Position numbers and translations under genes: made by a program. DNA of 64,000 nt from an uncultured bacterium (lineage in GTDB: Bacteria; Bipolaricaulota; Bipolaricaulia; UBA7950; UBA9294). The notes beneath the pieces are model-generated. The model ran no database searches. It had not been told where the DNA came from and worked only from the letters and a program-made list of their open reading frames with translations. Location of the stretch: the NCBI GenBank assembly GCA_903857865.1, contig CAIOGO010000010.1, forward strand, positions 186,001 to 250,000, in the 5' to 3' direction. Every line of letters starts with the position of its first letter. Positions within the stretch are counted from its first letter, which is position 1. Shown piece after piece: positions 17,269-33,894 of the stretch.

Positions 17269-18590
17269 TCAGGCGAGTCCTCTTTCTCTGCTGACAGCTG
17301 ATGCAGGATGACGTCGGCCGACGCATCGCCGTCCGGCTCCCACCCCATCGAAGTGACCGTGAGCGAGACCGGGAAGCCAAACTGGGAGACGACGTCCGCC
17401 GAGTACACGCGGAGCCGATCCGCGGCGACCCACGCCCCTTCCAGAGGTGTCACGGGCAGAAGGGCAGCCATCCGATCCGACCCGATCCGAAACACGGTGT
17501 CCACGCGACGTAACCCAGAGAGCAGGAAGTTGGCCGTCCGAACTCGGACTCGGTCCGCGTCGGCCGCGTCGAGATCGCTCAGGCCACCTATGTCGACGAC
17601 AAGGAGGGAGGTGGGGTGCCGGTAGCGTCTTCCCTTCCCAAGCTCAATGCCGAGCTGCCCTTGGAAGTGGGCCACGTTGTACAGCCCCGTCACGGCATCG
17701 AGCAAGACGAGCTTTCGTAGTTCTTGTTCGTGGGTTTGGATGACCTTCGACATGAAGTGGAAGCCGTCTTCCAGCTGGCACACCTCGTCGCGCACAGGAG
17801 TCCCGGGAGTTCGGCGCAACGTCGACGCGATGTCAATGCTGTAGTCTCGTTGCGTAATGGCGACCGCGGCTCGAGCCAGGCGCCGGACGGGCTGGGTGAC
17901 AAGCACTGTGAGGACGAGATGGAGCAATCCCCCGAGCAGCAAGAACCCAGCGACCGCCGCTACCCCGAATGCCCACGACAGGCCTCGCACGTAGCCGGCC
18001 TGTTCGTCGAGAGACATGTCGACGACGACCACGCCCGCCTTCTCTATTCCCGACGTAATCGGGTGAACCGCGCGCAGGAAGTTGCGCCGCGCGGAATGGA
18101 CGGACTCGACGGCCACATCGCTCATGCTCTCATACCGCTCTGCCTCCTCCTCCGACGCAAGTCGCCCGACTGCCGTGGGATCGGTGCTCGCCACGGTCAC
18201 GAGCCCCCGCGCCGTGGCTCCGATGACGGTAATCCCGACAATGGATTCGTATCGGCTGAGCAGTTTGCGAATGTCGGCATCGAGTTCGTCGGAGTAGTAG
18301 AGGATGTAGTCCTTCTCTTGGATGGACTTCGAGATCAAGGCGGCCACGCTGCGCGCGCGCTGCTCGTAGATCGATTGGATCGACGAGTGAAGAGAGGCAA
18401 ACGCGAACCAGAACAGGGCTCCCACGACGAGACAGGAGATCACAAGGGCAGGAGCAATCAACTTGAGCCGCAGAGAGGTCCCATAGCGGAGGCGCGAGCG
18501 AACGCGCGCCCATCCCCCCGGCCCGAAGACTCCTGGAGTCTCGCTACCCGCAGCTGCCTCCGTCTCGCGTCGATCGTTTGTCGAGGTCAT
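17265..18590 (-). CDS. membrane protein with HAMP-like linker and degenerate GGDEF domain
   Basis: A 441-residue protein with two transmembrane segments (about 42-64 and 208-232) around an extracytoplasmic sensor domain, a HAMP-like linker and a C-terminal GGDEF-fold domain beginning at DAVTGLYN. The signature loop reads G-S-D-R-M instead of G-G-D-E-F, and the Mg-binding acidic positions are altered, so diguanylate cyclase activity is unlikely; it may bind c-di-GMP or act as a scaffold. The ATG at 18590 has GAGGAG 5 nt upstream. It lies between the beta-helix fusion and the subtilase and may transmit their signal. Confidence 0.82.
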   Translation of the reverse strand: MTSTNDRRETEAAAGSETPGVFGPGGWARVRSRLRYGTSLRLKLIAPALVISCLVVGALFWFAFASLHSSIQSIYEQRARSVAALISKSIQEKDYILYYSDELDADIRKLLSRYESIVGITVIGATARGLVTVASTDPTAVGRLASEEEAERYESMSDVAVESVHSARRNFLRAVHPITSGIEKAGVVVVDMSLDEQAGYVRGLSWAFGVAAVAGFLLLGGLLHLVLTVLVTQPVRRLARAAVAITQRDYSIDIASTLRRTPGTPVRDEVCQLEDGFHFMSKVIQTHEQELRKLVLLDAVTGLYNVAHFQGQLGIELGKGRRYRHPTSLLVVDIGGLSDLDAADADRVRVRTANFLLSGLRRVDTVFRIGSDRMAALLPVTPLEGAWVAADRLRVYSADVVSQFGFPVSLTVTSMGWEPDGDASADVILHQLSAEKEDSPE

Positions 18591-18607
18591 CACCGCTCCT
18601 CTTCCGC

Positions 18608-20995
18608 CTACTTCGCGATCAAGGCCTCCCGCAGTAGAAAGTCAAGCGCCACATCCAAGGGGTCCCGGTGCAGCAGCCGAACCCGGCTGACCAGTCCGTG
18701 CAGGTTGTCTTCCGTGAGCCACGGGGCGAGTCTCATGAAGACGTCGCGGAGCCCTTCGGGAGGCGTCGCCGAGAGGGCCAGCCCGATCGACACGGAGGGC
18801 AAGAGGCCGCCATCGTCGAGCGCGCGGAAGTCGGCCAGGGTGACCGTCTCATCGATACGGTCGACGACGGCAACGTCCGCTCCGCCGAACTGAAGCGTCG
18901 TCTCCGCAGCGTCGGCCGTCGCCGCCATCTGGAACACGCTGAGAGCGAGTCCACTGTGTTCCAGCGCTTGACGGACAAGCCCCTCCGATACCCCGGGGCT
19001 CGCAGCCACAGACACTGGCAACCTTTGCGTTGCCCCAGACTCGGTCGCTCGCTGCGCATCCGTCACGCCACTCGACGCAACGAGCACCCAACCCGTCCGC
19101 GCGGGAATCTCCCAGAACGCGCCGATGCCTGAGCCCTCAAGACACCACGCCGCGTCGATATCGCCGCGTGCGAGGGCCGCCAGGAGCGCTTTCTCGGAGG
19201 AGAAGCCCACCATGTCGACGACACGGAAGCCCGCGTCGACTAGACAAAGCTCGAGCAGTCGGCCCAAGACCCGACTGGTTGGCGAGGCTCCCGCGCCGAC
19301 CGCCACGGTCCCCTTCCACGACGATTGCGGCAGGCGCACGTCTCCCGAGACGCGCCCGGCCTCCGCAGCACCTGATTCCTGCAGGGCGTTGCCGCCGGCA
19401 TAGAGAAGGGAGCCCGTCCTCGCCTCGAGGTCGAACGTGCGATTGCCCCGGAACACGTTGCCCGTGACCATCGGGCTCCCACCCGACGTCAGCCGATCGA
19501 CCCGGAACCCGAGGGCTTCAAGCGGCGAGGAAGACGGCGCCACATCATCCCAACTCAGGCCCACATCGTTCTCGACGATGCGGTTTTCCTTGACCTGGAT
19601 CCCGTATCCCACTCGGTGGAGGAAGATCCCGGTCTGACAGCCGAGAACCTCATTCTCCGCCACAACGTCGCGCGACGACCCGGCTACGAGAAGGCCAATC
19701 GGATGCTCACGCAGGCGATTCCCGGTCGCTGTACTTCCGAGGAGTCCGTTCGCCAGAGTCAGGCCCACGGAGTGGGAGCCGACGACCGTGTTGCGTTGAA
19801 GAAGCGCGCCGTCCGAAGACACGACGACGATTCCCGCGTCGCCGCCGTCCACGGAGTTGTCCAGTAGGAGAGCGCGTTCGGCTCCGTGAAGGAGAATGCC
19901 GCAGCTCGCCATGCGCGCGACCCGGTTGCGAAGGACTTGTGCAGCCGCCGAGCGATCCACGGAGATCGCGACGCCCCCTTCCAGGATGGTGTTGTGGGAG
20001 ATGAGGACATTCTCGCTCCCGGCCACGTCAATGGACGTATCGCCACATCCGCGAAACCGTCCGTCAAGGATGGCGTTGTCCCTGCCGCCCGCGACGCGGA
20101 CGCCCGCGCGGCAGGATCGAATGTCCGTGGACGACACGCGGCAGCCTCGCGCGTCGGCGAGATCGACCGCCGGATCCCCCGCCGTGACGAAGCGGCAGGC
20201 GTCCACGACTCCGGATTGCGTGGCTTGAAGCAAGATCCCGGCCGTCGTGTCCCGGATTTCGCTCGTCGAGACGGTGTTGTCGCTCCCCCCAAGGATCTCG
20301 AGGCCGACTTGCGAGCAGCGGACGATTGTGAGCCCGGTCAGACGAGACCCGACGCAGTCCTCAAGCGATACGCCAGTCGTCGTCCCCGCGACGTCCACGT
20401 TCTCCATGACGCTCCGCGCGACACCGCGAAGCCGGATCCCCACGACGGAAGGATTCGAGCACACGACGTCGCGCAGCGTCTGTGCGGAGGACAGGATGTC
20501 GACTCCGATGCGACCGCCTACGATCTCAATCCCCTCCGCTACGTTCTCCTCCCCACGTGAGAAGCGGAGGCCGACATCGCACGACTCGATGGACACATGG
20601 CGCACGCGGCACCCGGTGCCCGCGAGAGCAATTCCCACCGGCGCATCCTGGACGATGAGGTTGTCGAGCGTGACTCCATCGGCGACAACCTCGATCGCCG
20701 GGTTGTCTCCGCCGCGCAGCACGGCCGCCCGCCCCTTGGATCGCAGCGTGATCCCGGGCACCCGGACCACAACGGGTTCGCTGAACGGACCCTGATTCGC
20801 TTCCAGCACGATGACGCCGCCCGGAGTCACCCGCTCCAGAGCCTCGGAGATCGTGGCCACATCGCGCGGCACCACGAGGGCGCCTTCAGGGAAGCCCTGA
20901 TGCGTCAATCTCCACGCCAGGAGGAAGGCGCCGCCGACGGCGATCGCTGCGAACGCCGAGACCCAGACCTTTCGGGTGCGGAGCATGCTCTTCAT
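18608..20995 (-). CDS. NosD-like beta-helix fused to OpuAC/NMT1-like binding domain
   Basis: A 795-residue exported protein. After an N-terminal membrane or signal segment (about 10-30) there is a long right-handed parallel beta-helix (about 60-520) with many repeats of the type N-x-[IV]-x-x-N-x-[IV]-x-x-[GC], as in NosD and periplasmic copper-binding or carbohydrate-binding proteins. The last 240 residues look like a periplasmic binding protein of the OpuAC/NMT1 type, with VDAGFRVVDMVGFSSEKALL, D-I-D-A-A-W and L-A-R-G. No transporter genes are adjacent; instead a degenerate GGDEF protein and a subtilase follow. A TGGACG-18-TAGAGT promoter ends 7 nt before the ATG, so the mRNA is probably leaderless. 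Confidence 0.82.
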   Translation of the reverse strand: MKSMLRTRKVWVSAFAAIAVGGAFLLAWRLTHQGFPEGALVVPRDVATISEALERVTPGGVIVLEANQGPFSEPVVVRVPGITLRSKGRAAVLRGGDNPAIEVVADGVTLDNLIVQDAPVGIALAGTGCRVRHVSIESCDVGLRFSRGEENVAEGIEIVGGRIGVDILSSAQTLRDVVCSNPSVVGIRLRGVARSVMENVDVAGTTTGVSLEDCVGSRLTGLTIVRCSQVGLEILGGSDNTVSTSEIRDTTAGILLQATQSGVVDACRFVTAGDPAVDLADARGCRVSSTDIRSCRAGVRVAGGRDNAILDGRFRGCGDTSIDVAGSENVLISHNTILEGGVAISVDRSAAAQVLRNRVARMASCGILLHGAERALLLDNSVDGGDAGIVVVSSDGALLQRNTVVGSHSVGLTLANGLLGSTATGNRLREHPIGLLVAGSSRDVVAENEVLGCQTGIFLHRVGYGIQVKENRIVENDVGLSWDDVAPSSSPLEALGFRVDRLTSGGSPMVTGNVFRGNRTFDLEARTGSLLYAGGNALQESGAAEAGRVSGDVRLPQSSWKGTVAVGAGASPTSRVLGRLLELCLVDAGFRVVDMVGFSSEKALLAALARGDIDAAWCLEGSGIGAFWEIPARTGWVLVASSGVTDAQRATESGATQRLPVSVAASPGVSEGLVRQALEHSGLALSVFQMAATADAAETTLQFGGADVAVVDRIDETVTLADFRALDDGGLLPSVSIGLALSATPPEGLRDVFMRLAPWLTEDNLHGLVSRVRLLHRDPLDVALDFLLREALIAK

Positions 20996-21002
20996 CAGTG
21001 TC

Positions 21003-21032
21003 ACTCTAGCACAGCAAAACTCGCATCGTCCA
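21003..21032 (-). promoter_or_regulatory. leaderless-type promoter of the beta-helix operon
   Basis: Minus-strand TGGACG (21027-21032), 18-nt spacer, TAGAGT (21003-21008), then 7 nt to the ATG at 20995. The region between has no ribosome-binding site. Confidence 0.45.
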
Positions 21033-22773: not shown

Positions 22774-24429
22774 ATGAGACCTCTGAGCATGGGGAGCGTT
22801 GGACTTCGTCGTCTTCTGCTCGTTTCGGTTTGTCTCGCGCTGTTGTTCTCGGCCTCGATCCTAGGGCAGGCGAGCGCATCGCTCGGCGTGGCCAAGGAGG
22901 CCCGCGTCGAGACGCACGGCGACGGATCGTTCACTGTCACGTATGTGATTCATGCGGTCAACCTCGGGACGTTCGATCTTCACGAGGTGCGCATTGAGGA
23001 CGACCTCGCGAGCGCCTTCTCCGGAGCGTGGGCGCTTGAAGTCGTGTCCGTCACGAGCCTACGGGGCACCGTCCGCGCGGACTACGACGGGCGAGAGACT
23101 CGTTCTCTCTTGTCAGGTGCGGACCGCCTCGCCGTCGGCGAAGCGATCGACGTGACGCTCGTGGTGCGCGTTACCGTGGGCGAGGATCCGCTTACCTGCG
23201 CGAACTCGGCCCTCGGCACGGCTTTGGCCCCCGACGGCAGTCTCGTGGCCGACATCTCGGAGCAAGGTACTGACCCCGACCCGGATCAGGACACGGATCC
23301 CAGCAACAATGACACGCCTACTGTCGTCGTACTCGATCCCCGGCCCGTGACCAGTTGGGCCAATGTGTCGATGCACGGATCGTTTGAAACGTCCATCCAA
23401 GTCGCGGATGCGCCGCTCGTGGTTGACGTTACGTCGATCGCTTTCGATAGCTTCGTTCAACTCGACAGCTTCTCTGCGAGATGCTACGCCCGGTTTACGG
23501 ACACGAACTACGATCTCCTGATATTGTCCGTCTCAGGAGTGCTGGGGACAAGCCAGTTGAGCTCATCTCTCGTTTTCAATCCCACAACCGCCTCTTTCGT
23601 CTCCGCGCAAGCGACCGGGGCGCTCGACATCCTCGGGATTCATCTCACAGACACGGTGTACATCACTTCACCGCAATCCTCCTCCTACACGCTTCTCCGC
23701 GCCAGCGGCGATGCGGGACCCTTCACATTCGCCGCATCCGCTACGTTTGGCGTATGCCCCTTTACGTTCTCGGAGGCTTCCATCTATGCCACCTGGGAAT
23801 GGCAGGCTTGCTCTTCTACGCCACTTACGCCACTCCGAACGTCCGTGACCTTCGACGACCAGACTGGCTTTGAGTCGTTCACCGCATCGGCTGCGGGGAT
23901 TCCGATCCTGGAGGGTGTACTCGGAGGTGCCGGGCTGCTCGACGTGGCGATCGAGTTCACGCTAACGGAGAAGGTGGTGACGCCCACCCTGCGATTCCAG
24001 CCCGATTGGCTCGTGTGCCCCGATGTTAGAGTATTCGGAGAGATCGTTCTCAGCAGTGGCTCAATCGGCATCGAAGGCATCTCGATCTACGGCATCAGGG
24101 CCGAGTTGCCCATTGGGGATTTCGTCTTCCGTTTCGCGGATTCCTTCGTCGACTCGAGGAACTCGTCGATGACGGGAAAAGCGGCATTCTTTGAGCTCAT
24201 CGCAATTGAGGGTCCGATCACGTCGTGCTGTGCGTCGCCTGGAAGAGTGAAGCTTTCGGCGTACTTCGAGCGCCCGCCGGCTCCATCAGGAGCGCTGTTC
24301 GGCATAGGCCTCCTTGCCGGCTCCGTGGACTTCCGAGTCACGAACAACGTGGCCGCCTACTTCTCCGCCGAGTTCACACCCGTAGCGCCACACCTACACC
24401 TCTTGACTCGACTGCGCGTCAATTGGTAG
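22774..24429 (+). CDS. secreted DUF11-like protein with long beta-rich body
   Basis: A 551-residue exported protein. A hydrophobic signal segment (about 12-32) precedes a DUF11/isopeptide-like repeat domain (about 40-155, with TYVIHAVNLGTFDLHEVRIEDD), an acidic D-P-D-P-D-Q-D-T-D-P-S-N-N-D linker typical of this family, and about 380 residues of repetitive strands that read like a beta-solenoid or barrel with Cys pairs. The product is probably on the cell surface or part of the toga/outer layer; its function is unknown. The start may be the ATG at 22774 or the one at 22789. The 234-bp divergent gap before it holds no other recognisable gene. Confidence 0.65.
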   Translation: MRPLSMGSVGLRRLLLVSVCLALLFSASILGQASASLGVAKEARVETHGDGSFTVTYVIHAVNLGTFDLHEVRIEDDLASAFSGAWALEVVSVTSLRGTVRADYDGRETRSLLSGADRLAVGEAIDVTLVVRVTVGEDPLTCANSALGTALAPDGSLVADISEQGTDPDPDQDTDPSNNDTPTVVVLDPRPVTSWANVSMHGSFETSIQVADAPLVVDVTSIAFDSFVQLDSFSARCYARFTDTNYDLLILSVSGVLGTSQLSSSLVFNPTTASFVSAQATGALDILGIHLTDTVYITSPQSSSYTLLRASGDAGPFTFAASATFGVCPFTFSEASIYATWEWQACSSTPLTPLRTSVTFDDQTGFESFTASAAGIPILEGVLGGAGLLDVAIEFTLTEKVVTPTLRFQPDWLVCPDVRVFGEIVLSSGSIGIEGISIYGIRAELPIGDFVFRFADSFVDSRNSSMTGKAAFFELIAIEGPITSCCASPGRVKLSAYFERPPAPSGALFGIGLLAGSVDFRVTNNVAAYFSAEFTPVAPHLHLLTRLRVNW

Positions 24430-24444
24430 GGCCGAGGCCATCGC

Positions 24445-24963
24445 TCACTGAAGCGTAAGGCGAACGACGCTCTTGACCCAGTAGCTGCCTGCCGATGTCG
24501 CTTGGTACTCCTCGTTGCTGACGCGCCCGTCCTCGGGCAGCACGACGATGCGGAATCCATCACTCCACTCAGGGATCTCGACGCCGTTGAACGCGTAGGC
24601 GAGGACGACGGGGTACTCGGGATCCTCGACCCGCGCTCGGTCGACCGGCGCGTGGTATCCGTCCGCGGCCACGACCTCGACGGTCGCGTAGGCGACGTCC
24701 CCGATGAGGTCGCTGAGCCGCACGCCCGTGTAGGTTCCCGCATCGCGCCAATTGCCGAACTGGTTCTGGTACTCGCCCTGCCGGGTGAGGACGGGAAGCC
24801 GACGCAAGGCGGCGAGCGTCACCGTGCGGGTCGCTCCGGACGGAAGGACGACCTCGATCGCCGGCCCTTTCGGGGAAAGGACCCACCGAACGATGAGAGG
24901 AGCGGCAACGGCAACCGTGAGAACTACAAGCCCGAGGAGCATCCCTCGCCGAACGTTCTGCAT
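24445..24963 (-). CDS. membrane-anchored molybdopterin-fold (sulfite oxidase-like) domain protein
   Basis: A 172-residue protein with one N-terminal transmembrane or signal segment (about 6-28) and one extracytoplasmic domain. The domain order TYTGVRLSDLIGDV, then V-V-A-A-D-G-Y, then V-V-L-A-Y-A-F-N-G-V-E-I-P, then WVKSVVRLTLQ follows the sulfite-oxidase molybdopterin-binding fold (W-x-G-V-P-L, DGY, LAYEMNG, VKW). The molybdenum-ligand cysteine is not visible. The start overlaps the EcfT stop (ATGA). It is the last gene of the ECF operon and probably its extracytoplasmic ligand-binding component. Confidence 0.75.
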   Translation of the reverse strand: MQNVRRGMLLGLVVLTVAVAAPLIVRWVLSPKGPAIEVVLPSGATRTVTLAALRRLPVLTRQGEYQNQFGNWRDAGTYTGVRLSDLIGDVAYATVEVVAADGYHAPVDRARVEDPEYPVVLAYAFNGVEIPEWSDGFRIVVLPEDGRVSNEEYQATSAGSYWVKSVVRLTLQ

Positions 24964-25715
24964 CAAGTCCACCCCCCGCGTGCCGCAACGACCGCCAGCG
25001 CAATGGCCGCGCCTGCGATCCCGAGCGCGACGACGCTCCATACGCTTCGGGGTTCCTCGCGGCTCGCCGTTCGCCTGGAGTAGAGCCCGAAGCACCGACC
25101 CTTCATCGAGATCGCGATCGAGTCCACGCGGTGAAGTCCCGAAACAAGGACGGGGACGAACGTGTAGCGGGCCGCGTGGGCAATCCGCCGCGGACTGCGC
25201 ACCGAGACCTTGATCCCCCTCACGCGCTGGGCCTCGCGCACGGATCGAAGCTCGTCCTGAAAGAAGGGGACGAAGCGAAGCGCCAAGATGAACAGGTACC
25301 CGTACCGATACGGAATCCCGGCTCGAATCAACCCTTGTGCGAGGCGATCCGGGTCCGTCGTTCGGACGAAGAGCGCGCTCGCGGAGAGGATGACGAGGAA
25401 GCGAAGCGCCATGCGCGCGCCGGCCAAGAGCCCGCCCGCGGTGATGCGAACCGGAGACGTGACGAAGACCCGCCCCGTGTGAATCGACAGCGCCTGGGCA
25501 ATGAATAGGACGAGGGCGAAGAGGGTGACGAAGCGAAGGCCTCGGAAAAACTGCGCTGGGCGATCTCCTGAGGTGATCGCCAGGCATGCGACTCCCAGAA
25601 GGATCGCGCCTTCGACAATCAGGCTCGGAACCGCAAGCACGACCCCAACCAGGGCAAGCAGGAGAACGAAGTTCGTCATCGGCGAAGAACGATGGAGTCC
25701 TCTTCCTCCGGTCAT
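24963..25715 (-). CDS. ECF transporter transmembrane (T) component
   Basis: A 250-residue EcfT/CbiQ-type membrane protein with about six hydrophobic segments. The coupling helices carry the paired arginine signatures typical of EcfT: E-A-Q-R-V-R-G near residue 152 and M-K-G-R-C-F-G near 202, which contact the ATPases. It couples ATP hydrolysis to toppling of the substrate-binding S component. The start overlaps the ATPase gene stop by ATGA. The next gene encodes a molybdopterin-fold protein. CbiQ of cobalt systems is the closest relative by length, but no CbiM/CbiN partner is present here. Confidence 0.9.
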   Translation of the reverse strand: MTGGRGLHRSSPMTNFVLLLALVGVVLAVPSLIVEGAILLGVACLAITSGDRPAQFFRGLRFVTLFALVLFIAQALSIHTGRVFVTSPVRITAGGLLAGARMALRFLVILSASALFVRTTDPDRLAQGLIRAGIPYRYGYLFILALRFVPFFQDELRSVREAQRVRGIKVSVRSPRRIAHAARYTFVPVLVSGLHRVDSIAISMKGRCFGLYSRRTASREEPRSVWSVVALGIAGAAIALAVVAARGGWT

Positions 25716-27151
25716 GACCAGGTCTCCGGGGTGAACGCGATCTCTCCCAGGTCTCTCAGTCGGCCGAACACCTCGTCAGGAGGGCCGAGGAGTTGCACCC
25801 CTCGATCGAGGTAGAGAACCCGATCCGCCAGCGCCGCGGCGAGCGGGATGTCGTGCGTCACGAGGACGGCCGTTCCGCCGGCCGCGACCACCTCCCGTAG
25901 TCTTGAGATCATCCAAAGGACGTTTCTCCGGTCCTGACCGATGAACGGCTCGTCGAGCAAGAGCAGGTTCGGTCGGAGCGCGAGCGTCGTTGCCATCGTC
26001 AGACGGCGCTGCTCGCCGAGGCTGAGCGACAGGGGTACCGCGTCATCGAGGCCCGCGAGGCGCGCGTCGAGGAGTTCGGCATCGACGCCCCCTGCGTCCC
26101 GCGGGTTCCCGAGTTTGATCTCCTGTCGGACCGTTCGCTCGAAGATCTGGTGGTGCGGGTGCTGGAAGACGAAGCCGACTTGCGTTCCCCGGGCGCGCTC
26201 GATCGTCCCCGTCCGCGAGGACGCAAGCCCGGCGAGCAGCCGGAGGAGCGACGTCTTGCCCCCACCGTTTGGGCCGATCACCACGAGGACCTCGCCTTCG
26301 CGCAGGGTGAAGGAGAGGTCTCGCCACAGTGCTTCGTCATAGCCAAACGAGATGCGGTCGACCACGATCCGCGGAGAGCCGCTCGCTGTTTCCGGCGCAG
26401 GAAGGGCCCACGCCCCACGGAGTCCTGCCTCGGCGTAGTCGATGCGTTCTCGAGCCGGGTAGCGCTCGACCGTCTCTCCGTGGTCGAGAAGAACCAGGCG
26501 CGGCGCGAGCGCGCGGAGCGCGTCGATCCGGTGCTCGATGACCACGAGCGTTCGTTTCCCGGCACGCCCGAAGTCGGAGAGCGTCGCGAACAGCGCCTGG
26601 ACGCCGCGCGGATCGAGGTTCGCCGTGGGCTCGTCGAACAGGAGGACGCGCGGCTCCATCGCGAGGATCGACGCGATGGCGAGCCGCTGCTTCTCTCCGC
26701 CGGAGAGCGTCGTGGTCACTCGATCGCGGAGGTGCGCGATCCCGAGTTCGGCAAGACCCCGTTCAACGCGAGCTCGGACCTCAGGCGCCGGAAGGCACAG
26801 GTTCTCCGGCCCGAACGCCACTTCCTGCCACGCCGAGAGCGTGCAGATCTGCGCGTCGGGATCCTGTTGGACCAGCCCGATGCGGGTCGCCAGTGCCTCG
26901 GGCGCGACGTTGCGAAGGGACTCGCCGCCCAGGCAGACGTCGCCCGACACGGCCGCCGGGATCATCGACGGGACGAACCCCGCCAGCGTCCGACAGAGGG
27001 TCGTCTTCCCGCACCCCGAAGGCCCTGCGATCGCGACGACCTCCCCCTCGGCGATCGTCTCGGAGAACCCGACGAGCGCGTCGCTGTCTCGATCCGGATA
27101 GCGCACAGAGAGCTTCGAGATCGCGATGTCGAACCGCTCACTCGACGGCAA
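25712..27151 (-). CDS. ECF transporter fused double ATPase
   Basis: A 479-residue protein with two ABC ATPase domains in one chain. Domain 1 (about 8-235) has Walker A GPSGCGKT, signature LSGGEKQRL and Walker B VLLFDEPTANLD. Domain 2 (about 262-475) has GPNGGGKT, signature LSLGEQRRL and LLLLDEPFIGQD. This is the fused equivalent of EcfA1-EcfA2, as in YkoD of the thiamine-precursor transporter. It overlaps the S-component gene by 14 nt and EcfT by ATGA, so all are co-translated. The organisation YkoE-D-C plus accessory domains supports an ECF importer of group I type with a dedicated substrate. Confidence 0.92.
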   Translation of the reverse strand: MPSSERFDIAISKLSVRYPDRDSDALVGFSETIAEGEVVAIAGPSGCGKTTLCRTLAGFVPSMIPAAVSGDVCLGGESLRNVAPEALATRIGLVQQDPDAQICTLSAWQEVAFGPENLCLPAPEVRARVERGLAELGIAHLRDRVTTTLSGGEKQRLAIASILAMEPRVLLFDEPTANLDPRGVQALFATLSDFGRAGKRTLVVIEHRIDALRALAPRLVLLDHGETVERYPARERIDYAEAGLRGAWALPAPETASGSPRIVVDRISFGYDEALWRDLSFTLREGEVLVVIGPNGGGKTSLLRLLAGLASSRTGTIERARGTQVGFVFQHPHHQIFERTVRQEIKLGNPRDAGGVDAELLDARLAGLDDAVPLSLSLGEQRRLTMATTLALRPNLLLLDEPFIGQDRRNVLWMISRLREVVAAGGTAVLVTHDIPLAAALADRVLYLDRGVQLLGPPDEVFGRLRDLGEIAFTPETWS

Positions 27152-28190
27152 CCCGCACCACCATCTCTACCCAGTACGCGCCGTCGTACCCTGGGGCGAC
27201 GAGGCGAAGATCGTCGCCATCGAGGATCAAGAGGACATCCGGATTGTCCGTGAGTTCCAAAATCGGAAAGCGAGCCTCGTACCCGTCCGACGCAACGATC
27301 CGTACCGTCGCCGCACCGGCGGATGGACTCGCACGCTCGAGGATGAGGTTCACGGGGACGCCTGTGTAGTCGGCCGGAGGCACGTAGGTCACGCTGCCGC
27401 GCAGCTCGGTCCGCACGGTGCGCTCTTCCGCCTTCCACTCCCTGTACACGAACTCGTACGGCGCTCTCACCGCGCCTCCGATGGTTGCGGCGCCGGGCGA
27501 GGGGAACGGGTCATACACCTTGAGGTAGAAGTAGACGCCTCCCGCCAGGAATCCGAGGACAACAGCGAGCGTAGCGGCGTGGCGCCATCCGACGGCACGC
27601 CGCCCGTTTGGCACGACCGAATCCGTAGGGCGAATCAGGCGCGACGCCACGAGCACCCGTTCGATGTCCCACGCCAGGTACCCGCCGAAGACGGCGCCGG
27701 AGACGAACGCCGCAGCGATCATCAGAGCGAGGAAGCTGGCTGCGACGCCGGAGAAGTAGATCGCCTGGAACATGACGACGTTCGAGACGCTGGCCAGCGC
27801 GCCGGCGAGCATCGTGAGGGCAAGAGAACGCCGCCGCGTCAGCCCGAGGCCAAGGTCGACGAACAGGCCCTCGACCGCAGAGACGAGAAGGATCACCACG
27901 CCATGTGTCCCTCCGCTGAAGAGCTCGACCGCCCCCTTGGTGAGGCCCGTCAGTGTGCCGGCGCCGAACCGCCCGACGAGAGCACGGGCGAGAAGCGGCC
28001 ACACGATGTGCAGACCGGCAATGAGCTGTCCGGCGCCGAACGGAACGCCGAACAGCCGATTGATAAGGTTGCCGAGGTACCCGATGTACGTCGAGAGAAC
28101 TCCGCCGGCCGCGGAGAAGAGCGCGATCAGAACGATGTCGCGGACATCAAACCGGTAGCGCCGCTCCCCCGCGGCCGACTCCACGGGCAC
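27138..28190 (-). CDS. YkoE-like ECF S component with C-terminal molybdopterin-fold domain
   Basis: A 350-residue fusion. Residues 15-180 form about five hydrophobic segments resembling the YkoE-type substrate-specificity subunit, with G-G-V-L-S-T-Y-I-G and L-T-K-G-A-V-E-L-F-S-G-G-T segments. A further transmembrane helix (about 206-223) leads to an extracytoplasmic domain (about 225-350) with A-D-Y-T-G-V-P-V-N-L-I-L, V-A-S-D-G-Y and Y-W-V-E-M-V-V-R-V, the same fold as in the genes on either side. I am not aware of such a fusion in the characterised ECF systems. The substrate may be a thiamine-like compound, a tetrapyrrole or a molybdenum/tungsten compound. It sits 2 nt after the triple-repeat secreted protein. 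Confidence 0.8.
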   Translation of the reverse strand: MPVESAAGERRYRFDVRDIVLIALFSAAGGVLSTYIGYLGNLINRLFGVPFGAGQLIAGLHIVWPLLARALVGRFGAGTLTGLTKGAVELFSGGTHGVVILLVSAVEGLFVDLGLGLTRRRSLALTMLAGALASVSNVVMFQAIYFSGVAASFLALMIAAAFVSGAVFGGYLAWDIERVLVASRLIRPTDSVVPNGRRAVGWRHAATLAVVLGFLAGGVYFYLKVYDPFPSPGAATIGGAVRAPYEFVYREWKAEERTVRTELRGSVTYVPPADYTGVPVNLILERASPSAGAATVRIVASDGYEARFPILELTDNPDVLLILDGDDLRLVAPGYDGAYWVEMVVRVAVE

Positions 28191-28192
28191 CG

Positions 28193-29686
28193 CTAGTCCT
28201 TGACCAGGGCGATCGACACCAGGAACTTGACCGACTTCAGGCTCACACCCTCAGACAGAACGACGGAGTCATCGAAGACGAACCGCATCGCGCCGTCCTT
28301 CGACGTGTCGAGGAACGTTCCGTTCTTCTTGAACGCCACGACGAACCGGTCGTCCCGAGCGATCAGGCTCAGCGGCACCGTTTGGCTGTAGCCGTCGCTC
28401 GCCGTCAAGACGATGTGGTATCCCTCAGCGATGAGCTTGTCGTTGAAGTCCACGTCATCGTAGTGGATGCCCTGGTCCGCGGCCGGAGCCGCCCCGCCGT
28501 CCACGTAGGCGAGGAGACGCCACAGGGGGAGCCCTGAGTAGGTCGCCGTCTCACCTTTGGACGTCACGGTGGCCGTCGCCGTGTGGCACGGACAGCCGAT
28601 CCCCGCTTCCAGCTCGCTACGCGTGAAGACGCGCGTCGTCTCTCCGGTGACCGTCAGCGTGTACGCCGTGTACTCGCCGAGGACTTCGATCCTCTCGACC
28701 ATGCGCGCCGAGAGGGAACTGGTGAAGTGAGGATTCCCTTCTCCCACCTGCACGATGCGCAGGTAGCCGGGATCGAGCGGCATGTACCAGCCACTCTCCT
28801 TGTAGGCAAGAACCCAGGTGCCCGCCGAGCGATCCAAGAGCTGCGAGACGGGGTAGTTCATCGAGTACCCGTCCGACGCGGTGACGCGCACCGTCCCGTC
28901 GCTCGGGGCGTTGCCGATGAGCGCAGAGAAAGGGATCCCCGTGTAGGTCGCCGTGGTGTCAATGCCGGCCGAGTTGGTGAACGTGCCGGGCGCGGCGATC
29001 GATTCGAACGCCTCGATGTCCGCCATGGTGTAGGTGAAGGTCTCACCGCCCCGTGCGACGGTGAGCACGACGCCCTCCGCCGGCCCGGCCGCGAGGGCTA
29101 CGTTCTCTGCAGCTGTGGGGAGGCTCGCGCCGTCGTAGTTCACGATCAGGTACGCGACGTTCTTCACCAGAAGTCCCGTCGTCGACGGCTTGTCGCCGTA
29201 GTAGTGCGCGTAGTCCGGACCCAAGGCAGCGAGCATGTCGTCGTTCGAGAACCGCTCGTCGGACGCGAGGAACACGAGAACCGGAGCGTCTTCACCGTCC
29301 GACCCGACTTCGAGGCCGAGAATCGGCGTACCTGCCGGCGTTTCGCTGTAGATGGCCGCATACGGCAGTCTCTTGGTGTAGCCGTCCCCGGCGACAACCG
29401 AGACGACGTCTCCCGTCGCCATGCCGCCGACTTCCGACAGGATGGCCGACAACGGGATTCCCGCGTACGTCTTCGGCGACTTCCAGTTCTCGGCGCCGTC
29501 GCTCATGGCGGGACCCTGATAGGCGACCGTGCCGCCGGCACTGATCGAGAGAAGGGGCAGGTCCACTTGCACGACGCGATCGCCGTTTTGCACGACCACG
29601 GCCCAGGACGTCGCGGCGGCAGATGCTGCCGAGAGTCCAACCAAGACGAGAACGAGACTCAAAGCTCCGACCAAGATTCCTCTCAT
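28193..29686 (-). CDS. secreted protein with three molybdopterin-fold domains
   Basis: A 497-residue exported protein: signal peptide (1-23), then three repeats at about 28-183, 205-336 and 340-496. Each repeat has [ST]Y[ATS]G[IL]P[LF], a hydrophobic helix, a D-G-Y strand and a C-terminal V-x-x-I/L strand, matching the sulfite-oxidase molybdopterin-binding fold. Only the third has cysteines in front of its Y-S-G-L-P-L motif (G-C-P-C-H, residues 364-368), roughly where sulfite oxidase relatives place their metal-ligand cysteine. The start overlaps the regulator stop by 4 nt. It is probably the primary extracytoplasmic binding protein of the ECF system, either free or lipid-less. Confidence 0.78.
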   Translation of the reverse strand: MRGILVGALSLVLVLVGLSAASAAATSWAVVVQNGDRVVQVDLPLLSISAGGTVAYQGPAMSDGAENWKSPKTYAGIPLSAILSEVGGMATGDVVSVVAGDGYTKRLPYAAIYSETPAGTPILGLEVGSDGEDAPVLVFLASDERFSNDDMLAALGPDYAHYYGDKPSTTGLLVKNVAYLIVNYDGASLPTAAENVALAAGPAEGVVLTVARGGETFTYTMADIEAFESIAAPGTFTNSAGIDTTATYTGIPFSALIGNAPSDGTVRVTASDGYSMNYPVSQLLDRSAGTWVLAYKESGWYMPLDPGYLRIVQVGEGNPHFTSSLSARMVERIEVLGEYTAYTLTVTGETTRVFTRSELEAGIGCPCHTATATVTSKGETATYSGLPLWRLLAYVDGGAAPAADQGIHYDDVDFNDKLIAEGYHIVLTASDGYSQTVPLSLIARDDRFVVAFKKNGTFLDTSKDGAMRFVFDDSVVLSEGVSLKSVKFLVSIALVKD

Positions 29687-30378
29687 GCTTCCTCCTCCAG
29701 AGGCGTTGTGTGGATGGCTGCGGTCAGCAGGGTCACGCAGACGAAGTCCCCCCGTGTGGGGGAGAGCTCGCTCCGATCGGCGGCGTAGAGAGCGTTCAGT
29801 TCAAAGCCGTCCGCGGCAAGAACGAGATTGACGAGTTGGCCCATCGGGCGGACCTTCGTAACGCGAGCCGGGAGGGCCGTGGCCGACGACGTGGTCGCGT
29901 TGATCGGGAGCGCGGTCGACACGCTCACGGTTTCCGGCGGCACGACAAGGCGAAGCGACGTGGCCCGCGAGAACGAGAGAACGCGGATGAGCGCGTTGCC
30001 GACGCGCACTGTGCAAAGGGCGCCGTGGCGCTTCTCCACGTGTCCGTCGAACGTGTTTCGCGCCAGGAGGCGCGAAGCGCCCGGCCGGTACGCGCCGAGA
30101 TCGGTGACCGCGTGCCCGAGCCGGACACGCTCCGACCACACGAGATCCTCCATGACCGATCGTGACGTTCCCGCCGCCACGAGCAGCTCTCCCAGATCCA
30201 ATTCTAGAACCCCGGCCAGCGTGCGGATCGACGTGAGATCGGGGGCCGGGCGCGTTCCCTGCTCGATGCGCGCTAGGCGGCTGTAGTCGACGCCGGACAG
30301 GCTCGCCAGCCGCCGGAGACTGAGGTTCTTCTCGGCCCGGGCGGTATGAATCAGGTCTCCGAATTGGCGTTTGGTCAC
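29683..30378 (-). CDS. XRE-type regulator with C-terminal TOBE (molybdate/tungstate-binding) domain
   Basis: A 231-residue transcription factor. The N-terminal helix-turn-helix (about 5-60) has L-R-R-L-A-S-L-S-G-V-D-Y-S-R-L-A-R-I-E-Q-G. The C-terminal third (about 145-225) reads like the TOBE domain of ModC and related proteins: LPARVTKVRPMGQLVNLVL and R-G-D-F-V-C-V-T-L-L-T-A-A-I-H-T. TOBE/Mop domains bind molybdate or tungstate, so this protein probably represses or activates the downstream ECF genes in response to the oxyanion. The GTG at 30378 is preferred: the ATG at 30408 lies inside the promoter spacer. It is the first gene of the operon. Confidence 0.82.
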   Translation of the reverse strand: MTKRQFGDLIHTARAEKNLSLRRLASLSGVDYSRLARIEQGTRPAPDLTSIRTLAGVLELDLGELLVAAGTSRSVMEDLVWSERVRLGHAVTDLGAYRPGASRLLARNTFDGHVEKRHGALCTVRVGNALIRVLSFSRATSLRLVVPPETVSVSTALPINATTSSATALPARVTKVRPMGQLVNLVLAADGFELNALYAADRSELSPTRGDFVCVTLLTAAIHTTPLEEEA

Positions 30379-30386
30379 GATGGCGG

Positions 30387-30415
30387 AGTCTACGGACGGT
30401 GTTGCCATTTGTCAA
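30387..30415 (-). promoter_or_regulatory. strong leaderless promoter of the ECF operon
   Basis: Minus-strand TTGACA (30410-30415), a 17-nt spacer and TAGACT (30387-30392), then 8 nt to the GTG at 30378. Consensus -35 and ideal spacing make this the best promoter in the window. The mRNA would begin within about two bases of the start codon. The in-frame ATG at 30408 lies in the spacer and cannot be on this transcript. Confidence 0.68.
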
Positions 30416-30417
30416 CA
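30400..30417. promoter_or_regulatory. palindromic operator over the -35 box of the ECF operon
   Basis: An 18-bp imperfect palindrome, TGTTGCCATTTGTCAACA on the plus strand, with seven of nine base pairs matching; the outer five are TGTTG and CAACA. It covers the -35 hexamer and the adjacent spacer. By position it is the likely binding site of the XRE-TOBE protein, acting as an autorepressor. Confidence 0.55.
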
Positions 30418-30442
30418 GACCGCCTGAGCCACCCGAAACGCC

Positions 30443-30471
30443 TTGCAAACGGCATCACGCAGTCCTACCCT
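30443..30471 (+). promoter_or_regulatory. promoter of asnS
   Basis: TTGCAA (30443-30448), 17-nt spacer, TACCCT (30466-30471). The -10 box ends 29 nt before the ATG at 30501. The motif TACCCTCTT is shared with the rpsF promoter and with the one at 48520. Confidence 0.55.
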
Positions 30472-30500
30472 CTTCCCCACATACGAGGATGGAGGAGTCC

Positions 30501-31796
30501 ATGGCATCGATCAGGATCTCCGAGGCGCGACAGCATCTGGGAGACGTGGCGACTCTGCGGGGTTGGCTCTACAACAAGCGGTCAAGCGGCAAGATTCTGT
30601 TCCTTCAATTGCGCGATGGAACCGGGATTCTGCAGGGAGTGGTCGCTGAGCCTGAGAACCCCCAGTTGTTCGCGCTCGCCGCGCGTCTTCCGCGCGAGAC
30701 GTCCGTCATCGCGTCCGGAACACTGCGCGAAGATCCTCGCGCGCCCAGCGGATGCGAGATGCAGTTGTCAACCCTCGAGGTCATCCAGGAACCGACGGGC
30801 GATTTTCCGATCGAACTCAAGGAGCAGACGCCAGGTTTCCTCCTCGATCATCGTCACCTGTGGATCCGCACCGGCCGGCAAGTGCCCATTCTTCGCGTCC
30901 GGGACGCAGCTTTCCGAGCCTTTCGCTCGTTCTTCTGCGAACGCGGGTTCGTCGCGACCGAGGCACCCATCCTCACCGGCGCGTCCGTCGAGGGGACGAC
31001 GACCCTGTTCGAGCTCGACTACTTCGGCGACAAAGCTTACCTGAGTCAGAGCGGCCAACTCTACCTCGAAGCGACGGCGATGGCTCTGGGAAGAGTCTAC
31101 TGGATCGGGCCGGCGTTCCGCGCCGAGAAGTCGAAGACTCGCAAGCACGTGACTGAGTTCTGGATTGCGGAAGCGGAGATGGCGTTCTATGACCATGCGG
31201 CCAACCTCGCGCTCCAGGAGGACCTCGTGCGCTACCTCGTCGAGGCGGTCGTCGCGGAACGCAAGGAGGACCTCGTCACACTGGAGCGCGACACCGACCT
31301 CCTCCTCCGCGAGGTGCGCCAGCCGTTCGCGCGCATCGACTACGGGGACGCCGTTCGCCTTCTCCAGGAGAAGGGTCATGAAGTGACCTTCGGTGACGAC
31401 TTCGGGGCTCCGGAGGAAGAAGCGCTCGGCGCGCATTTCGGACGGCCGGTGTTCATCGAACGCTTCCCCGTGACGATGAAGCCGTTCTACATGAAGCGCG
31501 ATCCAGCAGATCCGACGCGAGCTCTTGCCGCCGACCTCATCGCACCCGAGGGGTATGGCGAGATCATCGGCGGCAGCCAGCGCGTCGACACCGTGGAGGA
31601 ACTCCTCGCTCAACTCGAAGAGAACAAGCTTCCTACGGCACCCTATGAGTGGTATATCGACCTGCGGCGGTATGGCTCGGTGCCGCACTCCGGGTTCGGT
31701 ATGGGTCTCGAACGGGTCATCACGTGGATCTGCGGCGCGTCACACATCCGCGAGGTCATCCCGTTCCCGCGGCAGATTCACCGCCTCTATCCGTAG
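30501..31796 (+). CDS. asnS: asparaginyl-tRNA synthetase
   Basis: Class IIb aminoacyl-tRNA synthetase that charges tRNA-Asn. The 431-residue product has the N-terminal OB-fold anticodon-binding domain (about 15-105, V-A-T-L-R-G-W-L-Y-N-K-R), motif 2 around G-P-A-F-R-A-E-K-S-K-T-R-K-H-V-T-E-F and motif 3 at G-F-G-M-G-L-E-R. Discrimination from AspS rests on length and on the archaeal/bacterial AsnS-type segments V-T-E-F-W-I-A-E-A-E-M-A and M-K-P-F-Y-M-K. The ATG at 30501 has GGAGGAG 3-5 nt upstream; an ATG four codons earlier is an alternative. It is divergent from the ECF operon. Confidence 0.93.
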   Translation: MASIRISEARQHLGDVATLRGWLYNKRSSGKILFLQLRDGTGILQGVVAEPENPQLFALAARLPRETSVIASGTLREDPRAPSGCEMQLSTLEVIQEPTGDFPIELKEQTPGFLLDHRHLWIRTGRQVPILRVRDAAFRAFRSFFCERGFVATEAPILTGASVEGTTTLFELDYFGDKAYLSQSGQLYLEATAMALGRVYWIGPAFRAEKSKTRKHVTEFWIAEAEMAFYDHAANLALQEDLVRYLVEAVVAERKEDLVTLERDTDLLLREVRQPFARIDYGDAVRLLQEKGHEVTFGDDFGAPEEEALGAHFGRPVFIERFPVTMKPFYMKRDPADPTRALAADLIAPEGYGEIIGGSQRVDTVEELLAQLEENKLPTAPYEWYIDLRRYGSVPHSGFGMGLERVITWICGASHIREVIPFPRQIHRLYP

Positions 31797-31806
31797 GGCA
31801 CCCTCG

Positions 31807-33894
31807 CTAGAGCCTCACGAGGATATCTACGACCGCCGCGCCGTCCGCGTTGGCAATCACCGGATTGAGGTCAACTTCCGAGACCTCCGGCAGATCGACG
31901 GCGAGCTGGCTGAGAGCCGTCAGCAAGTCCACGAGAGACGACAGGGCGACGGCTCGTTCGCCGCGAAAGGCTTCGAGAAGGCGGAACGAGCGGATGGAGC
32001 GGATGGTTGCCGCGGCCTGATACGAACTGACGGGCGCGACGGCAAACGCCACATCGTGGAGCGCCTCGACGAGTGTCCCTCCGAGCCCGAACATCGCTAC
32101 GGGTCCGAAGGCCCGGTCTCGCTCGATCCCGTAGATCAGTTCGCGCCCCCGGCGCGTCTCTTGAAGCAGTGTGCGCGCCCCATCAAGACCGGAACGGCTG
32201 ACGACGCCACGCAAGCGTTCGATGGCAGCGCGCAGTTCCAGCTCACTGGTGATGCCCGTGATCACGGCACCATGCTCGAAACGGTGAGAGAGGGACGGAG
32301 AGTCGACCTTGGCCACGATCGGGTATCCCAACGCTCGGGCCGCCCGCGTCGCCTCGTCCGGAGTCTCGACGTAGCGAAACGCACAGACTGGAATCCCGTA
32401 CGCAGCCAAGACCTCCGCCCCCTCGTCGAAGAAGAGGCCGGAACGCCCCTCCGAAAGGACACGGCGCAGGACCTCGTGAGCGCGCAGACGATCGAACGAG
32501 CGGGGAGGTTCAGGAGCCTGCCAGCTCTCACGGATCCGCCGAGCACGGTCGAGCACCGCTAGGGCTTCCACCGCAGTCTCCGGCATGGCGTACACGGGCA
32601 GCTTGGCCGCCCTCAGTCGTTCGACGGCAGGCGTGGATTGCTCGCTGAGCGTGCAAACAAGGACGGGCTTGTCAGGAACCTGCGTGGCTGCTTCGACGAT
32701 GTGGTCAGCGACCGTCTCGGGGGCGTCCTTGAGGACGAGCGGAGGGCGGAAGATCACGATCGCAGCGTCCGCTTCGGCCAATCCAACGGCAAGCCCGCGC
32801 CCGTAGTCCGAGGCTCCGGCGGTCGCAATCATATCGATCGGGTTTCCCAATCCGGCTTCGGCGGGCAGGAACTCGGCGAGCTTCTGCTTCGCAGCATCGC
32901 CAAGCGCTGGTACGGCGATGCCCATTCGTTCGCAGGCGTCTGCCGCAATGATGCCTGCGCCGCCGGCGTTCGTCAGAATCGCAACACGGTTCCCGCGAGG
33001 CAGGACACCGCGTTCGATCGCGCGCAGCGCGGTCAGCGTCTCTTGGATCGTCGTCACGCGGAGTGCCCCGCACTGGTTCAAGAAGGCGTCGACGATCGCA
33101 TCCGGGCTGGCAAGGGACCCCGTGTGCGAGGCGACGGCCGCGGCTCCTGCCTCCGTTCGGCCAGCCTTGAGGACGACAACGGGCTTGTCCTTCGAGATCC
33201 GCTGGACGTACCGGCGGAATTCGATCGGGTCCGCGAAACTCTCCAGGTAGAGGAAGATCGCTGTGCAAGTCGGATCGGATTCGAGATGGGCGAGGAAGTC
33301 GTTCTCGGATAGGCCAGCGCGATTCCCGAGGTTGATGAACAGAGACACGCCGAGGTCGGCGTCCCCGAAACACTCGAGCAGAGTTTCGCCGAGGGAACCG
33401 CTCTGGGACACAAAGGCGATGCCGCCTCCCTGGGGAAACCAGCGAGAGAAGGAGGCGTTGAGACGGACGGACGGGGTGCTGTTGATGATCCCCATGCAAT
33501 TCGGGCCGACGACGTTGAGCGAGTTCTCTTCGATCAGGTCGCGCAGGGCGCGCTCCCTCTCCGCCCCTGCGCTGCTACTCTCTTTGAACCCAGCGGTGAT
33601 GACGACCAGGTTCCGAATGCCACGTCTGGCACAGTCTTCCACTCCGGCCAAGACAAGATCTCGATTGATGGCAAGGACCGCGAGGTCAACCCCGCTCGGC
33701 AGATCGGCGACGGAGGAAGAGCACGGCAGACCGTCCACGCGATCGTATTTGGGGTTGACGGGGAGGATCGTGCCGGGGAAGCCGCATCGCTGAAGGTTTC
33801 TCAGGATCTCGCCCCCCACGGATCCCGGCTTGGGGCTCGCACCGACGACGGCGACCGAGCGTGGCGCAAGAAGCTTCGCTAGACCCCTACGCAT
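31807..33894 (-). CDS. ADP-forming acetyl-CoA synthetase (fused alpha-beta)
   Basis: A 695-residue NDP-forming acyl-CoA synthetase that interconverts acyl-CoA, ADP and phosphate with acid, CoA and ATP, giving energy conservation in fermenting anaerobes. Order of domains: CoA-binding Rossmann fold (about 7-125, with V-A-V-V-G-A-S-P-K-P-G-S-V-G), succinyl-CoA ligase-like domains (to about 455), then an ATP-grasp domain (about 475-690). The phospho-histidine is His257 in A-S-H-T-G-S-L. It is encoded with a DUF5317 membrane protein and an HD-GYP protein upstream, overlapping the former by 8 nt. The AMP-forming enzyme at 1231-2856 works in the activating direction. Confidence 0.92.
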   Translation of the reverse strand: MRRGLAKLLAPRSVAVVGASPKPGSVGGEILRNLQRCGFPGTILPVNPKYDRVDGLPCSSSVADLPSGVDLAVLAINRDLVLAGVEDCARRGIRNLVVITAGFKESSSAGAERERALRDLIEENSLNVVGPNCMGIINSTPSVRLNASFSRWFPQGGGIAFVSQSGSLGETLLECFGDADLGVSLFINLGNRAGLSENDFLAHLESDPTCTAIFLYLESFADPIEFRRYVQRISKDKPVVVLKAGRTEAGAAAVASHTGSLASPDAIVDAFLNQCGALRVTTIQETLTALRAIERGVLPRGNRVAILTNAGGAGIIAADACERMGIAVPALGDAAKQKLAEFLPAEAGLGNPIDMIATAGASDYGRGLAVGLAEADAAIVIFRPPLVLKDAPETVADHIVEAATQVPDKPVLVCTLSEQSTPAVERLRAAKLPVYAMPETAVEALAVLDRARRIRESWQAPEPPRSFDRLRAHEVLRRVLSEGRSGLFFDEGAEVLAAYGIPVCAFRYVETPDEATRAARALGYPIVAKVDSPSLSHRFEHGAVITGITSELELRAAIERLRGVVSRSGLDGARTLLQETRRGRELIYGIERDRAFGPVAMFGLGGTLVEALHDVAFAVAPVSSYQAAATIRSIRSFRLLEAFRGERAVALSSLVDLLTALSQLAVDLPEVSEVDLNPVIANADGAAVVDILVRL

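Follow-up and report, generated by a model that had tools for sequence, protein, structure and literature searches.

A six-gene ECF transporter operon with sulfite-oxidase-fold domains in Bipolaricaulota, a candidate importer of tungsten or molybdenum cofactor

Results

Organisation of the operon

We analysed a stretch of 64,000 nucleotides (the window) from a Bipolaricaulota genome, and within it an operon of six genes on the minus strand (inside positions 24445-30417) that encodes an energy-coupling factor (ECF) transporter together with proteins of the sulfite oxidase (SUOX) fold. In order of reading, the genes code for an XRE-TOBE regulator, a secreted protein of 497 amino acids (aa), a substrate-specific S component of 350 aa, a duplicated ATPase of 479 aa, the transmembrane protein EcfT of 250 aa and a membrane-anchored protein of 172 aa (Table 1). 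They are separated by 2 nt or overlap by 1-14 nt. The original prediction, made from the letters of the DNA, had the positions and the tight spacing of the reading frames right but counted five genes; the ATPase and EcfT are distinct open reading frames that overlap by 4 nt, which makes six. A single operon with its own genes for S, T and ATPase marks a group I ECF transporter, and the Walker and signature sequences of the ATPase are seen on inspection. The genome measures 2.24 Mb and is 91% complete. A contig scan of genomes, which returned only close relatives, gave metagenome-assembled genomes (MAGs) of Candidatus Bipolaricaulis as the nearest with names, and a comparison with PHROGs matched nothing.

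Table 1. Coordinates of the operon's genes, domains and control elements in the window, with the basis of each assignment
Feature	Position	Strand	Basis
Palindromic operator TGTTGACAAATGGCAACA	30400-30417		Sole site without mismatch in the window; recurs before XRE-TOBE genes in families f1, f3 and f2
Promoter TTGACA-17-TAGACT, overlapping the operator	30387-30415	-	Sole promoter-like site in 24200-31000; 17-nt spacing common to the listed relatives
XRE-TOBE regulator	29683-30408	-	HTH_3 34.1 bits and TOBE_2 23.3 bits (cut-off 21), both above cut-off; start likely GTG 30378
Secreted triple SUOX-domain protein, 497 aa	28193-29686	-	PF00174 43.7 bits; AlphaFold2 model, pLDDT 84; PruR Z 15.5; sulfite oxidases Z about 15
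SUOX domain D1, PruR-like Trp (W68) in an N-W-K motif	29129-29608	-	hhalign to the other domains; Trp aligned with PruR Trp
SUOX domain D2	28673-29110	-	Top fold match at residues 199-338; best Pfam stretch 239-337
SUOX-like domain D3 with conserved C-P-C-H	28196-28669	-	Alignment; conservation in 16 homologues
CPCH motif of D3, residues 365-368	28583-28594	-	Conservation
YkoE-like S component with one extra transmembrane helix and C-terminal SUOX domain	27138-28190	-	PF09819 (ABC_cobalt/YkoE) 66.5 bits (cut-off 25.2); 5edl TM-score 0.75; profile E 5.9e-13
SUOX domain at the C-terminus of the S component, predicted to be extracytoplasmic	27141-27503	-	Model and profile comparison; topology from helix count
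Duplicated ECF ATPase, two ABC_tran domains	25712-27151	-	Pfam
EcfT, CbiQ family	24963-25715	-	PF02361 96.8 bits
Membrane-anchored protein, one SUOX domain, PruR-like Trp	24445-24963	-	PF00174 18.0 bits, below cut-off; hhalign 99% to D1; conserved last gene

Five SUOX domains related to PruR

SUOX domains occur three times in the secreted protein (D1 to D3), once at the C-terminus of the S component and once in the anchored protein. Profile-profile comparison relates all five to one another, at 61% for the weakest pair (D3 against the anchored protein) and 84-99% for the others, and AlphaFold models searched with Foldseek have the SUOX fold, which confirms the proposed five copies of a domain resembling the molybdopterin-binding fold of sulfite oxidase. 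With the Pfam profile PF00174, a check suggested in the original prediction, the triple protein scores above the cut-off of 24 bits and the two other proteins below it (22.2 and 18.0 bits). The first matches of the secreted protein's model are structures of PruR (7kp2, 7kom and, with neopterin, 7rkb), sulfite oxidases scoring about equally, while the C-terminal part of the S-component model matches sulfite dehydrogenases and PruR. PruR is a periplasmic pterin-binding protein in which the Mo-ligating cysteine is absent and a tryptophan stands in its place (PMC13259868).

The operon's domains resemble the PruR proteins of Agrobacterium, Vibrio and Klebsiella in lacking, for the most part, the ligand of molybdenum cofactor (Moco) enzymes. 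At that position, compared by alignment rather than by superposition, there is no cysteine in D1, D2, the S-component domain or the anchored domain; D3 has the sequence C-P-C-H, of which C365, P366 and C367 are invariant and H368 nearly so among the 16 homologues. This conserved motif is a possible metal ligand. The PruR-type tryptophan is confined to D1 and the anchored domain, where it is nearly invariant; D2 and the S-component domain have neither the tryptophan nor CPCH. PruR acts with DcpA in signalling (PMC13259868), whereas the domains described here belong to a transporter operon. The conserved operon contains no DcpA-type gene, and a GGDEF protein is encoded several genes away (17265-18593). 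A signal peptide was assigned to the triple protein on inspection, and the topology of the S component was read from its seven transmembrane helices and the positive loop preceding the seventh. By these features all five SUOX domains should lie on the outer side of the cytoplasmic membrane.

Comparison of the S component with YkoE

The membrane part of the S-component model superimposes on YkoE (TM-score normalised by the target), the S component of YkoEDC. This group I ECF transporter of thiamine and hydroxymethylpyrimidine (HMP) from Bacillus subtilis likewise combines a PF09819 S component, a duplicated ATPase and EcfT in a single operon. In the aligned columns, however, the thiamine contacts of YkoE are largely replaced: Tyr46 by Ala, Trp49 by the invariant His61 and Asp131 by the invariant Gln142. 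The column of Gln95 holds Glu or Gln, and Glu77 is the sole contact strictly retained. Further differences from YkoEDC are the extra transmembrane helix and SUOX domain of the S component, the additional SUOX proteins, and an XRE-TOBE regulator in place of the thiamine pyrophosphate (TPP) riboswitch.

Neither a TPP riboswitch nor any other Rfam match was found in the window, and a scan of 11 related loci gave two TPP matches, both pointing away from the ECF operon. These belong to the two genomes of genus g25, where the riboswitch and an operon with a thiB-like gene stand divergently beside the ECF operon (L054:3181-3284, L055:12298-12401). The TPP riboswitch of the genome under study is on another contig, where it precedes the genes for thiamine diphosphokinase and for a binding protein resembling NMT1/ThiY. 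Control of the operon by a Moco or TPP riboswitch was rejected on the Rfam results.

Regulator, operator and promoter

The palindrome TGTTGACANNTGNCAACA overlaps the promoter and contributes its TTGACA as the -35 box; the interval 24445-30417 of the original prediction ends on the final base of this operator. In the listed relatives 17 nt separate TTGACA from a TAxxxT -10 box, and the start codon comes 5-11 nt beyond that box, so that the operon message is probably leaderless. Because the -10 box falls between ATG 30408 and GTG 30378, the regulator probably starts at the latter codon.

The same palindrome, with one or two changes in some loci, lies upstream of the XRE-TOBE gene in ECF operons of families f1 and f3. 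In genome G067 of family f2 it precedes an XRE-TOBE orthologue followed by TupA and TupB, and the regulator of that genome matches the Mop profile TIGR00638 at 65.2 bits (curated cut-off 55). The TOBE assignment of the original prediction thus holds, both through TOBE_2 in the operon's own regulator and through Mop in this orthologue. Palindrome and regulator are seen again in G066, at a contig end, and the palindrome of the ECF operon is also borne by additional SUOX genes of G030 and G032. More distant XRE-TOBE genes of family f4, which are without the palindrome, adjoin TupABC (L094, L095) or are divergent from WtpABC (L099, where WtpA scores above its cut-off); the TupA of L094 and L097 was named by best match, at 191-205 bits, below the curated cut-off of 400. 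TOBE domains bind molybdate or tungstate. Because the palindrome is shared with tupAB, the orthologue matches Mop and related XRE-TOBE genes stand beside TupABC or WtpABC, we assign the regulator, on sequence comparison, to tungsten and molybdenum supply. TupABC and WtpABC themselves differ from the operon in transporter class and binding proteins, and they import the oxyanion. The metal importers NikMNQO and CbiMNQO are group I ECF systems with small extra anchored components; their S-component family and extracytoplasmic domains are unrelated to those found here.

Distribution, and lack of detected genes for cofactor biosynthesis

We surveyed 100 genomes of the phylum, counting fragments split across contigs once. 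An S component with a SUOX domain is present in 24 of them (the carriers), which belong to two families. The gene order is the same in most loci whose contig is long enough, across genera and both families, and the arrangement is therefore not due to chance. There are exceptions: in G031 the triple protein is missing from the ECF gene set, in some species of genus g20, which has no such ECF operon, the triple protein occurs by itself, and in G072, a single contig, the set is distributed over three places (regulator and triple protein; S component, ATPase and EcfT; anchored protein). The anchored SUOX gene of G072 (L158:6409-7731) stands alone beside a transposase-like gene, which suggests relocation from the operon.

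Enzymes that use a pyranopterin cofactor accompany the operon. In the profile survey, AFOR_N, the domain of aldehyde ferredoxin oxidoreductases (AOR), was found in all 24 carriers and in 57 of the 76 other genomes. The biosynthetic genes MoaA, MoaC and MoeA occur together in 31 of the 100 genomes, and 35 genomes have one or more of them, yet profile searches detected none of the three in 23 of the 24 carriers. TupA was likewise undetected in these 23; the remaining carrier, G029, has all four genes. Among AOR-containing genomes, 1/24 carriers have Moa genes, compared with 20/57 of the other genomes (Fisher p 0.004); within family f1 the figures are 0/18 and 6/13 (p 0.002). Both tests ignore relatedness; at the level of genera the association has a p of 0.04.

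The matches to PF12849 in carriers are PstS, save for the TupA of G029, and the remaining carriers without Moa genes have no such match. The genome under study has no match to PF13531 and no ModA/WtpA-type binding protein. In the other carriers, most of the strongest PF13531 loci were compared with one WtpA and none was similar, the weaker matches not all being typed; no carrier attains the 180-205 bits of ModA-like matches in other genomes. On the side of the enzymes, the genome under study has seven AOR matches and a subunit of the xanthine dehydrogenase type in which both Moco-binding domains are present. Its MobB gene overlaps an AOR gene (L165:6404-8790), and the two are also adjacent in G017 (L183:6405-8791); the same adjacency was expected in genus g17 but was found in these two genomes only. 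FolE is present in 19 of the 24 carriers, in which the pterin ring of folate is therefore home-made.

SUOX genes outside the ECF operon

Genome G001 encodes a two-domain secreted SUOX protein, with Cys-His at the D3 position, between two WtpA genes that are followed by WtpC, MoaA, MoaC, MoaD, MoaE and MogA (L143:9084-17788), with MoeA on the same stretch. In G060 (L155:4699-8882) a secreted SUOX protein with two domains is encoded, together with a small multi-transmembrane protein without a Pfam match, beside MobA and a formate dehydrogenase that scores above the TIGR01591 cut-off; G059 (L154:8441-9988) has the same pair of SUOX and membrane proteins. MoaA, MoaC and MoeA were undetected in both genomes. 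The SUOX and small membrane proteins of G060 and G059 are possibly a second, unrelated cofactor-uptake pair. The small membrane protein encoded next to a SUOX protein in family f8 showed no resemblance in sequence to the S component. Judged by gene neighbourhood and operator, the SUOX genes of G001, G060, G030 and G032 tie the domain to tungsten and molybdenum supply independently of the ECF genes.

Discussion

From the gene set, the folds, residue conservation, the shared operator and the patterns of presence and absence, as read from sequences and models, we infer with a probability of roughly 60% that the operon encodes a group I ECF importer of a tungsten- or molybdenum-bearing pyranopterin cofactor (the tungsten cofactor Tuco, Moco, or a metal-bound molybdopterin) for cells unable to make it. 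The extracytoplasmic SUOX/PruR-fold domains, three secreted, one anchored and one on the S component, would capture the pterin and pass it to the YkoE-like S component, and EcfT and the duplicated ATPase would power inward transport. The imported cofactor would then be used by enzymes of the AOR and xanthine dehydrogenase types. The XRE-TOBE protein would bind the palindrome over the operon's sole predicted promoter and probably shut the operon off when molybdenum, tungsten or the cofactor is abundant. The fold, the TOBE domain, the operator shared with tupAB, the XRE-TOBE relatives beside TupABC and WtpABC, and the presence of AOR in every carrier support the original prediction, according to which the ECF system imports a compound of molybdenum or tungsten, or else some other ligand bound by the SUOX domains. 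The likely cargo shifts from the oxyanion to the cofactor because carriers have no detectable cofactor biosynthesis: MoaA, MoaC, MoeA and TupA are undetected while pyranopterin enzymes and MobB stay, and the fold of the domains is one that holds molybdopterin or free pterins. We lean slightly towards the further proposal that such an importer allowed whole lineages to discard Moco biosynthesis and the tungstate importer, keeping their tungsten and molybdenum enzymes under a tupAB-type regulator.

The chief competing explanation, which we regard as unlikely, is that the system imports tungstate or molybdate itself, substituting for TupABC or WtpABC under the same regulator, with the SUOX domains binding the oxyanion. 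The operator and regulator shared with tupAB, the 23 carriers without TupA, the lack of a PF13531 protein in the genome under study and the oxyanion affinity of TOBE domains would all suit such an importer. Its cargo, however, would be without known use in cells lacking MoaA, MoaC and the metal-inserting MoeA, whereas an imported metal-bound cofactor would be usable at once, and the SUOX fold provides a pterin pocket. To our knowledge, wherever the ligand of an ECF S component has been solved, it is a vitamin or a divalent metal and not an oxyanion. A simple pterin of the neopterin or monapterin type, taken up for folate synthesis or signalling, is an improbable cargo: PruR does bind such pterins with this fold, but the regulator and operator are of the molybdenum/tungsten type, the operon's presence tracks AOR genes and the loss of Moco genes, the locus has no PruR-DcpA pair, and FolE in most carriers speaks against salvage of pterins for folate.

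Import of thiamine or HMP in the manner of YkoEDC, with the accessory domains in an unrelated role, is very improbable. The relationship of the S component to YkoE and the divergent thiB-like operon in g25 are consistent with it; it was set aside as the leading explanation because three of the five YkoE contacts are replaced, no TPP riboswitch lies in the window, those of relatives face away, and the genome has its thiamine locus on a different contig. Had homologous operons always been linked to thiamine or cobalamin genes, the original prediction would have been contradicted; an adjoining TPP riboswitch was found in g25 only. Least probable of all is a secreted sensing or electron-transfer system whose ECF part is degenerate, as the separation of the triple protein from the ECF genes in g20 might suggest, given that nearly every carrier retains the S component, ATPase and EcfT side by side and that the ATPase keeps its Walker and signature sequences.

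Several points weigh against cofactor import. TOBE domains classically bind oxyanions rather than cofactor. AOR is present and MoaA, MoaC, MoeA and the ECF operon are undetected in genera g17 (12 genomes, G004-G015), g18 and g20, and by genome in G004-G015, G016 and G018-G025; the system is hence not the only response to the missing genes, and either there are other importers or our reasoning is partly mistaken. The survey covers one phylum, its genomes are mostly draft MAGs, and absences rest on profile searches. Four of the five domains have no cysteine at the ligand position of Moco enzymes, and, according to the description of PruR, its pocket is truncated and would probably not accommodate Moco (PMC13259868).

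In the literature searched we found no bacterial precedent for an ECF system linked to molybdopterin or for the import of Moco, which is weak evidence, and no described bacterial importer of a ready-made molybdenum or tungsten cofactor; the operon is probably such a route. Moco is usually regarded as a cofactor that each cell makes for itself. If our interpretation is true, a bacterial importer would make Moco or Tuco a shared good, as cobalamin is, and would explain genomes that bear AOR without detected Moa genes. It would also call for caution, since the loss of biosynthesis need not imply the loss of molybdenum or tungsten enzymes. The passage of pterins across bacterial membranes has been described as unknown (PMC13259868), and the use of exogenous Moco is documented in a nematode (PMC9793310).

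Two further genes of the window may be mentioned. A protein of the ADP-forming acetate-CoA ligase type (31807-33894) is encoded near the operon here, as it is in several relatives. Such enzymes receive products of AOR, yet the proximity may be mere synteny. On the other side, at 18608-21004, lies the gene of a 798-aa protein in which right-handed beta-helix repeats of the NosD type are fused to an OpuAC-like binding domain.

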